Assembly (NCBI GenBank): GCA_003252075.1
Contig: QKDO01000018.1
Span: forward strand, 1-42,874
Length of the DNA: 42,874 nucleotides
Source of the DNA: Nitrospirota bacterium
GTDB lineage: Bacteria; Nitrospirota; Thermodesulfovibrionia; Thermodesulfovibrionales; UBA6898
Direction of reading: 5' to 3'
The notes under the pieces were generated by a model, which was not told where the DNA came from, did not search any database, and was given only the letters and a program-made list of their open reading frames with translations. The position numbers and the translations under genes were made by a program. Within the stretch, counting starts at the first letter, position 1; every line of letters begins with the position of its first letter. Of the stretch, positions 3,584 to 38,124 are shown in pieces.

Positions 3584-5038
3584 TCACACACCCCCGCATG
3601 CCCTTCCCCGCAGGCTGAAGAAGAACTTGAGCGTTTTTTTCACCTTGTCCGAGAAAATCTTTCCTGAAAAATAGTTGCCGACAACACGCTTGTTGATCTC
3701 GGCGAGCGTGGGATAGGGATGCACCGCGCCGGCAAGCGCAGAGAGATTTACCTTGCCGTTCAGGGCAGCCACCCATTCGCTGATCAGTTCTCCGGCATGC
3801 AGGCCAAGGATCTGCACGCCAAGCGGTTTTTCCTTTGCATCGAGCACCAGTTTGATCCTTCCCAGCCCTTCACCCTCGGCAAGACCGCGGTCATTCATCT
3901 TGAATTCCTCTGCCCAGACAGTATACTGAAGGCCTGCCCGCTTCGCTGCCATCTCATTCATCCCGATACTCGCAAGCTCCGGGTCTGTGTAGGTACACCA
4001 CGGGAAATATGTATAGTCTGCCTTGCGCGGCAAATGCAGTATCGCATTTGTCAGCACCACGCCTCCTTCATAGCCTGCTGCATGCGTGAACTGGTAAGCC
4101 CCGGTAACGTCACCGGCCCCAAAGATATGCTTCTGTGTTGTCCTGAGTCTGCTGTCGAGGTTGAGCCCTTTTCCATCATAGGCAACACCGGCATTCCCGA
4201 GCCCGAGCGTTCCGAGATTAGGTTCCCTGCCCAGGGCCACGAGTATGGTTTCTGCCGTAATAATCGCAGTCCTTCCGTCCTTCATCCGGACCGTAACTTC
4301 CCGCTCGCTGCCCAAGTCTTTAACCGCCTCGATCATTGCATTAAGATGGAATCTCACCCCTTCTGCCGAGAGGTTCTGCATCACTGCCTCTGCCATGTCG
4401 GGGTCTTCCCTGCCGAGTATCTGCCCGCTCCGCTGGATAACCGAGACGTTTGTGCCGAGCCGGGAGAAGGCCTGTGCCATCTCGGTCGAGATCGGCCCAC
4501 CGCCCAGTATGATCATGGACTTCGGCAAGGTATCCAGGTAGAAGATATCCCTGTTCGTGATGTGGGGTATGCTGTTGAGCCCTGCGATCTTCGGAATGGA
4601 GGGAGATGAACCTGTCGCTATGACCCAGGTCTTGGCTGTTATCTTTCGGCCCTCCAGACTAACCGTATGCTCATCCATAAAGGTCGCATTCCCTGATTCG
4701 ACTTTTGCACCAAGACTGCAGAACCGCTCCGCCGAATCATGCTTCTGGATGACCGAGATCACCGATTTTATCCTGTTCGATACTTCCTTGAAGTCTACCG
4801 CTCGCACTTCCGATTCGGGAAGCCCGAAACGCGCGGCATGTTTCATGAGGTGATAGACATGGGCCGTCTTGATAAGTGTCTTGCTCGGCACACAGCCGAA
4901 ATGCAGACAGTCTCCGCCGAGCACGTTCTCCTTTTCTATAAGCAGGGTCTTTGCACCGAACTGGGCAGCTCCTGCAGCAACGGTGAGACCCGCAGAGCCT
5001 CCTCCCAGGATCCCGATATCATAGTCAAATTTTGCCAT
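3584..5038 (-). CDS. FAD-dependent pyridine nucleotide-disulfide oxidoreductase (mercuric reductase-like family)
   Basis: A 484-residue flavoenzyme of the dihydrolipoamide dehydrogenase/mercuric reductase class. It has an N-terminal FAD-binding GILGGGSAGL, the redox disulfide GGDCLHFGCVPSK around residue 45, a second dinucleotide fold ILGGGPISTEMAQ, FGAGDVTG, and the C-terminal dimerisation domain with HPYPTLAEI. It lacks the N-terminal HMA domain and C-terminal vicinal Cys pair of genuine MerA, and keeps the His-x-x-x-x-Glu region that MerA replaces. A thiol/disulfide substrate is therefore more likely than Hg(II). The ATG at 5038 follows AGGAGG. It sits 11 bases downstream of a VTT-domain membrane protein, a pairing common for this subfamily. 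Confidence 0.85.
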   Translation of the reverse strand: MAKFDYDIGILGGGSAGLTVAAGAAQFGAKTLLIEKENVLGGDCLHFGCVPSKTLIKTAHVYHLMKHAARFGLPESEVRAVDFKEVSNRIKSVISVIQKHDSAERFCSLGAKVESGNATFMDEHTVSLEGRKITAKTWVIATGSSPSIPKIAGLNSIPHITNRDIFYLDTLPKSMIILGGGPISTEMAQAFSRLGTNVSVIQRSGQILGREDPDMAEAVMQNLSAEGVRFHLNAMIEAVKDLGSEREVTVRMKDGRTAIITAETILVALGREPNLGTLGLGNAGVAYDGKGLNLDSRLRTTQKHIFGAGDVTGAYQFTHAAGYEGGVVLTNAILHLPRKADYTYFPWCTYTDPELASIGMNEMAAKRAGLQYTVWAEEFKMNDRGLAEGEGLGRIKLVLDAKEKPLGVQILGLHAGELISEWVAALNGKVNLSALAGAVHPYPTLAEINKRVVGNYFSGKIFSDKVKKTLKFFFSLRGRACGGV

Positions 5039-5049
5039 GCAACCTCCTG

Positions 5050-5754
5050 TTATGGTGAAGCGGATTTCTGCTTCTTCGCCCGATACGCCGCCAACAACTT
5101 CTTCGTTATAAGCGGGAATATGCCGAGCAGGATGAACGATATAATCAGCCCCGGAGAGAGAATACCGCTCAATGATTCGATCTTTCCAAGCTCCTTCCCT
5201 GCATTGACATAGACTATGGTGCCGGCGAGCATGCCGAGCTGCGATACCCAATAGAACGTGCGCAACGGCATTTTTGTCAGTCCCATTACCAGATTGATGA
5301 CGAAAAAAGGAAGAACCGGGATCAGCCTGAGCGTAAAGAGATAGAAAGCCCCCTCCTGTGAGATGCCCTCGTTGATGACCGTAAGCTTATCGCCGAATTT
5401 TCCCTCTACCCAGTCCCGCAAAATGAAGCGGGACACAAAACAGGCAATCGTCGCCCCTATGGTGCTGGCAAAGGAGACAATAAGCGTGCCGGCCCCGAGG
5501 CCGAACAGCGCTCCTCCTGCCAGGGTCATGACCGCTGCTCCGGGCAGGGAAAGCCCGGTCACCCCAATGTAGATGATCATATAACCACTGATCACTGCCA
5601 CAGGATGATCTCCATACCATGCTCCAAAAAGCTGCTGCGACCCCTTGAGATAGGAAAGGGTCAGATAATCCTCCAGGTGGAATATCCGGAATACGGCAAT
5701 AACAGCGATGATAACGACGACGATGATCAGTTTCTTGATCGCCATCTTATGCAT
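5050..5754 (-). CDS. VTT-domain (TVP38/TMEM64, DedA-like) membrane protein
   Basis: A 234-residue integral membrane protein with an N-terminal transmembrane helix (residues 5-22) and four to five further hydrophobic segments. The core has the VTT pattern: GAAVMTLAGGALFG, then F-x-x-R-L-I-P-V-L-P-F-F, typical of the SNARE-associated/TVP38 family, which is linked to lipid scrambling or small-molecule export in characterised members. Start: the ATG at 5754 has GGGAGG seven bases upstream and overlaps the end of glucokinase by 8 bases; a second ATG at 5745 would also be possible. It is coupled to the downstream oxidoreductase; their joint substrate is unknown. Confidence 0.82.
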   Translation of the reverse strand: MHKMAIKKLIIVVVIIAVIAVFRIFHLEDYLTLSYLKGSQQLFGAWYGDHPVAVISGYMIIYIGVTGLSLPGAAVMTLAGGALFGLGAGTLIVSFASTIGATIACFVSRFILRDWVEGKFGDKLTVINEGISQEGAFYLFTLRLIPVLPFFVINLVMGLTKMPLRTFYWVSQLGMLAGTIVYVNAGKELGKIESLSGILSPGLIISFILLGIFPLITKKLLAAYRAKKQKSASP

Positions 5755-6715
5755 CTGTCGCCTCCCGTAATGTCTGCCGGGCAAGGACAGCTGCGCCCCA
5801 GAGGCCACTGTTTTCATCGGTGATCAGGGATACCGGAACCTGCTCAAGAAGGTGGGCCAGCGTATCGGAACTGCGGAACTCTTTTCCGAACTCCGAATGC
5901 TCAAGCATTTCCGGTGCCCTTGCCGCCAGACCACCGGCCACGAAAAGCCCGCCACGGGCGAGGGTTTCAAGCACATAATTCCGGCATGCCCGGCCATAGA
6001 ATTTTGCAGCCCACGCAAGGGTCTCGGGATAGAGAGAAAATTCCTGAGCAACCTCTTCCGGGTCCTTTTTTCTTCCCGTCAGAAAATGGTGAAGGTAGCT
6101 CAGTCCTTTTCCTGAGACAACCGTATTGCCGGTGACATACTGCCCGTGATGCTCCCGCAGAAGAAATTCCTGATATGCATGTTCCCGTTTCGTTACAAAG
6201 GAAAAGTTGCTATGGCCGCCCTCAGAAGGGATAGCCCGATAACGGCCATGTCCAGCCTGAATGAGCAGGGCCTTTCCCAGGCCCGTACCGGCGCCGATGA
6301 CAGCGACCGGAGCGCCTGCAACGGTTCTCCCGGTCAGAATGACCTTTGCCCGCTCGCCCGCCTCCGAAGAACAGGCAAAAGCCTGCGCGACGAAGTCGTT
6401 GATCAACAGGCACTTTTTGAGACCGACCTTCCCCTGCACAGAACTGAGGTCGATATCCCATGCTATGAACGGCGGCCTGCTTCTTACCCCGTCCTCGACC
6501 GGCCCGGCCACGGCAAAAACGACAATATCAGCAGCCTCGGGGAAGAGGGGAAACCCGTTCCCGCCGAGATTATCGAGGAGATGACGGAACGAGTCTGCAT
6601 CAGTCGTCTTCAGCCAGACCACCTCAGCAAGGAGCAGACAGTCGTTCTCCGTGACTGTGAAATGGCCGAACCTGCTGTTCGTTCCACCGATATCGGCAGC
6701 AAAAATATGTTTCAT
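5747..6715 (-). CDS. glk: Glucokinase
   Basis: A 322-residue ATP-dependent glucokinase of the bacterial hexokinase/actin-like fold, converting glucose to glucose 6-phosphate. Visible motifs are the N-terminal phosphate loop ADIGGTNSRFG, the sugar-binding LLINDFVAQA with its Asp, the adenosine loop VIGAGTGLG, and SEGGHSNF. Length matches the family. The start at 6715 has a modest GGGACGG upstream. It lies between the DUF3047 gene and the VTT gene in the ArsS operon, and its product is the substrate of zwf encoded on the divergent transcript, so the two operons together cover glucose to ribulose 5-phosphate. Confidence 0.9.
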   Translation of the reverse strand: MKHIFAADIGGTNSRFGHFTVTENDCLLLAEVVWLKTTDADSFRHLLDNLGGNGFPLFPEAADIVVFAVAGPVEDGVRSRPPFIAWDIDLSSVQGKVGLKKCLLINDFVAQAFACSSEAGERAKVILTGRTVAGAPVAVIGAGTGLGKALLIQAGHGRYRAIPSEGGHSNFSFVTKREHAYQEFLLREHHGQYVTGNTVVSGKGLSYLHHFLTGRKKDPEEVAQEFSLYPETLAWAAKFYGRACRNYVLETLARGGLFVAGGLAARAPEMLEHSEFGKEFRSSDTLAHLLEQVPVSLITDENSGLWGAAVLARQTLREATDA

Positions 6716-7490: not shown

Positions 7491-7516
7491 CCAGCAGGCA
7501 CCCTGCCCGCTACTGG
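7491..7516 (-). promoter_or_regulatory. Bacterial SECIS-like hairpin after the arsS TGA
   Basis: In the minus-strand RNA, six base pairs (CCAGUA at 7516-7511 with UGCUGG at 7496-7491, one G-U) are followed by a three-base bulge on the 5' side, then four pairs (GGCA with UGCC) closing a GGG loop at 7503-7501. The loop starts 24 nt after the TGA and begins with G, both within the known range for bacterial SECIS elements. The TAG stop overlaps the 5' arm. Pairing was done by eye. Confidence 0.65.
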
Positions 7517-8475
7517 ATCGAACCAATTCACGTGGAGCCCTGTCCTGCCGTGCAACCGAAACAGTGGTCGTCGACGATGATCTTTCTCGACGCGAGCCGG
7601 TCGTGATCAAAATCCCTGATCATGGCAGGATACCCTTCGGCAATACCGAGTCCGGTCATCTGGTTGAAATCACAGTCATACAGCCTGCCGTCCCATGCCA
7701 CATTCACCAGGCGCCTGCACATGAGACCGCACAGGGTCTCCGGATTGAAGGCCTGCATGAGCTTTTCCATGTATGTTTCAAAATTGCCGCTCCTGAGCAG
7801 GAATTGGCGAAACCTGCCGACCGGCATGTTTGCAAAGGTATAGAGACGGTTAAAGGTAATACCAAAGGCTGAGCCGAGTTCTTCCTTGTATGTCGCTTCG
7901 AGAGAAGACTGCACAGGAGGGAGAAAAGCTCCCGCAGGATTATAGACGAGGTTCAGCGTTCTTCCCCTATCAGAACCATAGCCAAGATTATTCAGTTTCC
8001 TGAGCGCAGCAATACTCTTGTCAAAAACTCCCTTTCCCCTCACCCTGTCGACATGCTCACCATTGCAGGAAGGGAGAGATGCTACGAGCTCGATATGCTT
8101 TCCGTCATAGAAGTCGAATAGATCTTCCATCCCTTTTTCATAGAATATCGAAAGGTTAGTACGCACCACGACATGGCAGCCCGCGCTTTCCGTCTCCTCA
8201 ATAAGATAACGGAAATGCGGATTCAACTCCGGAGCGCCACCGGTTATGTCAACGGTCTTGATCCTGCCGTCATGTAAAACGGCAAGAACGGCATCAACCG
8301 TCTCCCTGCTCATGGCCTCCTGGCGGTCAGCTCCTCCCTGCACATGGCAGTGCTTGCACGCCAGGTTACAGCGATATCCTACATTTACCTGCAGCATGTC
8401 TATGCCGGAGGCGGTCAGGGGACCATCCTGACGTGCCCGGATCTTTTCACTGAAGCGAGCGCTGAACACGGGCAC
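7510..8475 (-). CDS. arsS: ArsS-type radical SAM enzyme, predicted selenoprotein (in-frame TGA read as Sec316)
   Basis: A radical SAM enzyme matching arsenosugar-biosynthesis ArsS, which in characterised cyanobacteria transfers a 5'-deoxyadenosyl group to dimethylarsenite. Seen: cluster motif C36-N-L-A-C40-K-H-C43, TGGAPEL, and a Cys-rich C-terminal domain with LCGLMC, YDCDF and HCFGCTAGQGST. The standard frame stops at TGA (7530-7528). Family members continue with Cys at this point, so TGA probably encodes Sec316; five more codons (IGSIQ) lead to TAG at 7512-7510, giving 321 residues. A SECIS-like hairpin follows directly. The start is GTG at 8475, just after the stop of the CMD gene. If no selenocysteine machinery exists in the genome, the end is 7528. 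Confidence 0.85.
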
Positions 8476-8477
8476 TC

Positions 8478-8810
8478 TCAGATGGAGATCTTTTCGGCTG
8501 CGTTATGCGCCTGGATGCCGTGAATGAGCGATGCCCCTCCCCTTACTGCAGAGGCAACATGTACGGCTTCGGTAATATGCTCCATGCCCATGCCTTCTTC
8601 CAGGCAGCTTTTCGTAAAGGCATCTATGCAGTAGGGGCACTGCAGGGCATGGGCCACACCCAGACCGATGAGCACTTTTTCCCGCCTGGTAAGCGCTCCG
8701 GGCTGGAGTGACGTGTTGTACCAGTCCATGAACTTCTTAAAGAGCTCCGATTTGAACTTCCCGATCTCGCCAAAACGGCCGAGGTCCTCTTCCTTGTAAT
8801 AATCACCCAT
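8478..8810 (-). CDS. CMD/AhpD-fold peroxidase-like protein, arsenosugar-locus associated
   Basis: A 110-residue protein of the carboxymuconolactone decarboxylase/AhpD fold. The redox motif CPYCIDAF sits at about residue 58 and is followed by GGASLIHG, typical of the small peroxidase-like proteins found next to ArsS radical SAM genes. Some relatives carry Sec in this kind of motif; this one has two Cys. The ATG at 8810 has AAGGAG eight bases upstream and is the first gene of the long minus-strand operon. It probably acts in thiol redox chemistry or as a partner of ArsS; no direct evidence for substrate. Confidence 0.85.
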   Translation of the reverse strand: MGDYYKEEDLGRFGEIGKFKSELFKKFMDWYNTSLQPGALTRREKVLIGLGVAHALQCPYCIDAFTKSCLEEGMGMEHITEAVHVASAVRGGASLIHGIQAHNAAEKISI

Positions 8811-37683: not shown

Positions 37684-38110
37684 TTATTGAGACTGCCCTC
37701 TATCGGGGAATCCGTCCTCCCATTTCTGTCCTTTGTTAGTCTCTTCATAATGCCGTTTGATCTCCTTGTATAATGCATCGTTTGTTCGTTGCGCTAAAAG
37801 TTCAAAGTAAGTCCCTTTTTTGCCCAACGATACGGTTTGCAACAATGAGGTCAAATCCCGCACCACAACCAACATCAAGAATGGTTTCTCCTGATATGAC
37901 TATCCCCAGCCTAAAGGGATTTCCCACTCCACAAAAGGATTCAATCAGTTCATCGGGCATACTCTGGATAATTGTGGGATCATAACCCCGCTGGATTGCA
38001 CCCTCTCTCCCTGTGGGATAATTAAATTTTCCAGTAGCCGACCTTGATACCTGTGCATATTTCTCCCGAACAGCATCCTGTATCTTCTTTTCATCTATTT
38101 CATTACTCAT
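37684..38110 (-). pseudogene. arsM: Arsenite methyltransferase (ArsM) remnant, truncated and frameshifted
   Basis: The ATG at 38110 has GGAAGGAG upstream and begins a good ArsM-like sequence: VREKYAQVSRS, FNYPTGREGA, SFCGVGNPFRLG and the SAM-binding ILDVGCGAGFDLIVAN. The frame stops at 37804-37802 just after a six-A run (37821-37816) in the coding strand. In the next frame, TYFELLAQRTNDALYK... continues to 37684 but does not look like ArsM; the rest of the methyltransferase fold and its other arsenic-binding Cys are absent. It is thus a 5' remnant joined to foreign sequence. It sits 14 bases after the MtrA-like gene. Confidence 0.75.
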
Positions 38111-38124
38111 TTTGCTCCTTCCCA

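Follow-up and report, generated by a model that had tools for sequence, protein, structure and literature searches.

A predicted C-terminal selenocysteine in the arsenosugar biosynthesis radical SAM protein ArsS of a Nitrospirota bacterium

The window, the whole stretch of 42,874 nt analysed here, carried a gene for the radical SAM protein ArsS on its minus strand, interrupted close to its 3′ end by an in-frame TGA. From the GTG at 8475 the frame comprised 315 residues, ending ...DDHCFGCTAGQGST, and the TGA at 7530-7528 followed directly after ...HCFGCTAGQGST. A preliminary description of this DNA had ended the frame at this TGA and continued it with Ile-Gly-Ser-Ile-Gln and TAG. Both assignments were correct, the first to the base and the second with the TAG at 7512-7510. 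Numbering of the selenocysteine (Sec) as residue 316 assumes that GTG 8475 is the start. The following features were assigned:

8478-8810, minus strand: AhpD-like arsenosugar-associated peroxidase-like protein, directly upstream of arsS (TIGR04169, 148.9 bits; cut-off 120)
7510-8475, minus strand: arsS, radical SAM (seleno)protein of 321 residues with predicted Sec316; GTG start at 8475, TAG stop at 7512-7510
7528-7530, minus strand: in-frame TGA, predicted Sec codon of a GxxU motif (G-S-T-U); the column holds Cys (TGC/TGT) or TGA in homologues
7510-7527, minus strand: predicted post-Sec codons IGSIQ and TAG stop (ATT GGT TCG ATC CAG TAG)
7492-7512, minus strand: bSECIS-like hairpin TAGCGGGCA-GGG-TGCCTGCTG, with a 9-bp stem (two G-U pairs) and a GGG loop at 7503-7501

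Of 80 related loci, 49 likewise had an AhpD-like relative of TIGR04169 detected close to arsS. The gene after arsS encoded a DUF3047 protein and probably starts at ATG 7474, so that the hairpin would take up roughly half of the short intergenic spacer. Further downstream (3584-6715, minus strand), a glucokinase-like protein, a VTT-domain membrane protein and a mercuric-reductase-like flavoprotein were encoded. A few unrelated arsS loci also had genes of the latter two types nearby.

With readthrough of the TGA, ArsS matched TIGR04167 with 426.5 bits over profile positions 2-302 of 303, exceeding the curated cut-off of 300 over the whole model. The Pfam domains were Radical_SAM and DUF3641, and the DUF3641 match extended to the end of that model (134/134). 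The C-terminal Cys-or-Sec residue that follows CxxCTAGxGxx in the family was present as HCFGCTAGQGST-U. A sequence search of the PDB returned only a weak match, to the radical SAM core.

Among 296 sampled genomes of the phylum, at least 21 ArsS matches from 20 genomes contained an in-frame TGA codon. A conserved Cys at the TGA site, proposed in the preliminary description together with an alignment of the C termini, was borne out. Among 147 distinct homologues, the column held Cys in 123 and TGA in 24, with no other state (147/147 rows); all non-TGA homologues read had Cys. Read as an ordinary stop, the TGA would end ArsS at Thr315 and leave the hairpin incidental, for example as a weak terminator or as spacing sequence ahead of the DUF3047 gene. 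This reading has in its favour that TGA is normally a stop codon and that the six residues at stake sit at the very C terminus. However, no homologue among the 147 distinct rows ended naturally at the Thr315 position, an outcome that had been named beforehand as counting against Sec. The sequence past the TGA also spoke against an ordinary stop, as amino acids were kept while third bases varied. In the 23 Sec members compared, Sec+2 was always Gly (23/23), with all four third bases in use, Sec+3 was Ser, Ala or Thr, and Sec+4 was mostly Ile or Val; codon variation lay mainly at third positions. The residues after Sec agreed with those of the Cys forms (C-x-G-[AS]-x-stop), and TAG or TAA stood exactly six codons past the TGA in 18 of the 23. 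By this pattern, the codons after the TGA behave as coding.

The hairpin, likewise claimed beforehand with its GGG loop 24 nt past the TGA, was recovered at 7512-7492, with a fold of about -12 kcal/mol. Taken alone, this fold was modest, the 45-nt stretch reaching z = -2.1 against shuffled sequences. The rule applied here required G[G/T] at or near the loop start, a distance of 14-37 nt and a stem of at least 5 bp; hairpins were scored as pairs minus G-U pairs, with a threshold of 5 or more. This threshold was reached by 22 of 23 Sec members versus 8 of 104 Cys members, and after 6.3% of the 3254 TGAs in the same genome as background. The arsS hairpin scored 7, a value reached by 0.8% of these TGAs. 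The association of the hairpin with Sec members rather than Cys members is a further point against an ordinary stop. A consensus fold of the Sec members recovered the same six pairs, and stem cells were paired in 94.2% across the 23 members, with none of 500 shuffles as high. Both sides of the stem changed at one pair only, from A-U to G-C in four sequences, and the covariation is therefore supportive, not strong. Published bSECIS rules demand a loop of 3-9 nt, a stem of 4-16 bp, a G in the first two loop positions, a distance of 16-37 nt from the UGA and a minimum free energy of at most -7.5 (PMC13188914). Tested against these, as the preliminary description had advised, the arsS element conformed with its 3-nt GGG loop, 9 bp, 24 nt and about -12 kcal/mol. 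The TAG stop forms the beginning of its first stem strand; the element thus consists of the stop codon and 3′-untranslated sequence and lies outside the reading frame.

A search of the genome for selA, selB, selC and selD, also advised there, succeeded for three of the four genes. The genes selA and selB adjoined on contig 9, and selD was located on contig 5; SelA (607 bits), SelB (366 bits) and SelD (341 bits) passed their curated cut-offs. An intact selC was not found in the 146-contig draft, a point that favours an ordinary stop; only 3′-end remnants were detected, one of 44 nt on contig 71 (G000:C71:29674-29717) and one of 25 nt on contig 123 (G000:C123:31837-31861). A degenerate selC pattern gave no match in the genome, and an Rfam scan of the 42,874-nt window returned nothing. 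Matches to RF01852 below the cut-off were, where checked, ordinary tRNAs (Trp, Ser, Tyr, Leu, Gly, Arg). No tRNA was located within or beside selB, the arrangement reported for some Nitrospirae, or in the stretches scanned at the smc and thioesterase neighbourhood, the site of selC in close relatives; these neighbourhood genes lay on separate contigs here. The sister genome UBA6898, which shares 97.4% identity with this one across the 4.75 kb surrounding arsS, contained an intact selC with a UCA anticodon beside a tyrosine recombinase, and further selC pieces elsewhere; the loci concerned in the sister genome are L193, L195, L197 and L198. A tRNA-Sec match was also present in 18 of 19 relatives with TGA-containing ArsS. 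Because of the intact sister copy and these matches, selC is probably present in the organism and missing from the assembly. It looks like a recurrent integration site, and mobile elements that use its 3′ end for attachment would fit the remnants and could explain both these and the assembly gap.

Second tRNA-Sec-like tRNAs (L163, L165, L164 and L166) were observed in the relatives G182, G254, G272 and G256, respectively. Three of them were called with other anticodons, two as Cys (GCA) and one as Gly, whereas L164 received no call. The pair with GCA resembles the selC* tRNACys reported from Nitrospirae (PMC7609411).

Such tRNAs allow a reading in which the TGA is recoded, but as Cys or another residue, by a selC-like tRNA (selC* tRNACys, opal anticodon). 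The occurrence of selC-like tRNAs with GCA or other anticodons in G182, G254 and G256 and of selC* tRNACys in Nitrospirae would be in keeping with it. However, ARAGORN called the UCA tRNAs of the relatives tRNASec, the best tRNA matches of relatives scored 61-75 bits with the Rfam tRNA-Sec model, and the genome itself encoded SelA, the Ser-to-Sec synthase, and a Sec-type SelD. Recoding to a residue other than Sec is thus considered highly improbable.

Other genes of this genome also had in-frame TGA codons at canonical Sec sites, which again argues against an ordinary stop in arsS. SelD contained one at SCAG-U-AAK (UxxK). Two ArsM-type methyltransferases contained one at AYSG-U-ITG and AWSQ-U-IGG (UxxG), the former scoring above the family cut-off and the latter being a more distant relative. 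Both UxxK and UxxG are motifs tabulated for known selenoproteins. A SECIS-like hairpin was present for SelD and both methyltransferase genes, that of the contig 120 gene being weak (-6.0 kcal/mol). The two genes, likely encoding selenoproteins, were located as follows:

G000:C120:15486-16268 (L219): ArsM-type methyltransferase with TGA at UxxG
G000:C146:20825-21475 (L220): ArsM-type methyltransferase with TGA at UxxG

The window itself held a truncated ArsM-like methyltransferase fragment at 37817-38113 (minus strand), which matched NF008823 positions 3-102 and then stopped. It is probably a decayed or partial copy.

Taken together, Sec recoding of the arsS TGA is strongly supported by sequence comparison, because TIGR04167 was matched through the TGA, the TGA aligned to an otherwise invariant Cys, the codons after it were constrained, the hairpin was conserved, and selA, selB, selD and other selenoprotein genes occurred in the same genome. 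The preliminary proposal of Sec316 is upheld by this evidence, and an ordinary stop has very little probability left. ArsS is almost certainly, as judged from these data, a C-terminal selenoprotein in which UGA 7530-7528 would be decoded as Sec through SelB and the hairpin. SelB carrying Sec-tRNASec would bind the hairpin 24 nt downstream of the UGA, and this binding would cause the ribosome to insert Sec; translation would then add IGSIQ and end at the TAG. The actual insertion is predicted from the genome. With the TGA read as Sec, a standard gene caller would predict an ArsS six residues too short and lacking the conserved C-terminal Sec/Cys residue.

In a quick tree of 58 rows, the Sec and Cys states needed five changes versus 18.7 for shuffled labels, and the Sec rows thus grouped within a single Nitrospirota portion of the tree. 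Well-supported branches forced only one change. Several switches between Sec and Cys, in either direction, have probably taken place, their count being only loosely fixed by this tree. One relative of the same genus (G113) had two arsS genes (L167 and L168), both with TGA and hairpin.

ArsS is reported to adenosylate arsenic in oxo-arsenosugar biosynthesis (Cheng et al. 2021, as cited in PMC12159101), and an ArsM gene was present in the same genome as arsS. Near the C terminus, a selenolate in place of the conserved Cys thiolate could serve in arsenical binding or in redox turnover. Within one genome, Sec is predicted at two steps of arsenic metabolism, the methyltransferase step and the radical SAM step, and the mildly fresh point of this analysis is solely that ArsS and the ArsM-type enzymes encoded together in this genome are all predicted to be selenoproteins. 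The arsenosugar route of this Nitrospirota lineage may tentatively be regarded as selenium-dependent at two successive steps, with the ArsM-type methyltransferase(s) and ArsS all selenoproteins, although we rate this as somewhat less than an even chance. If true, this would link the handling of arsenic to the supply of selenium.

Literature searches for ArsS with selenoprotein returned nothing direct; the family turned up in the tables of reviews. The preliminary description had stated that part of the family is annotated as selenoproteins. This agrees with those listings and with the NCBIfam name of TIGR04167, arsenosugar biosynthesis radical SAM (seleno)protein ArsS, and the novelty is limited accordingly. 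The ArsS of the window is a further well-supported case of a known selenoprotein family, right but ordinary, and adds a Nitrospirota set of 24 distinct Sec sequences to a family that the reviews consulted list only as predicted. It shares with NCBIfam TIGR04167 (rSAM_SeCys) the full-length match, the order of Radical_SAM and DUF3641, the C-terminal Cys/Sec site, GxxU and the AhpD-like TIGR04169 partner gene. Nothing essential differs; the window member comes from Nitrospirota, with a SECIS stem that begins at the stop codon. AAR34688.1, a radical SAM selenoprotein that Zhang and Gladyshev (2005) predicted and that PMC13188914 and PMC9312934 tabulate as the representative, is alike by family and motif listing in these tables, with TIGR04167, GxxU and one Sec. 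The Cys-type ArsS of other bacteria belongs to the same enzyme family and has Cys instead of Sec in the homologues read.
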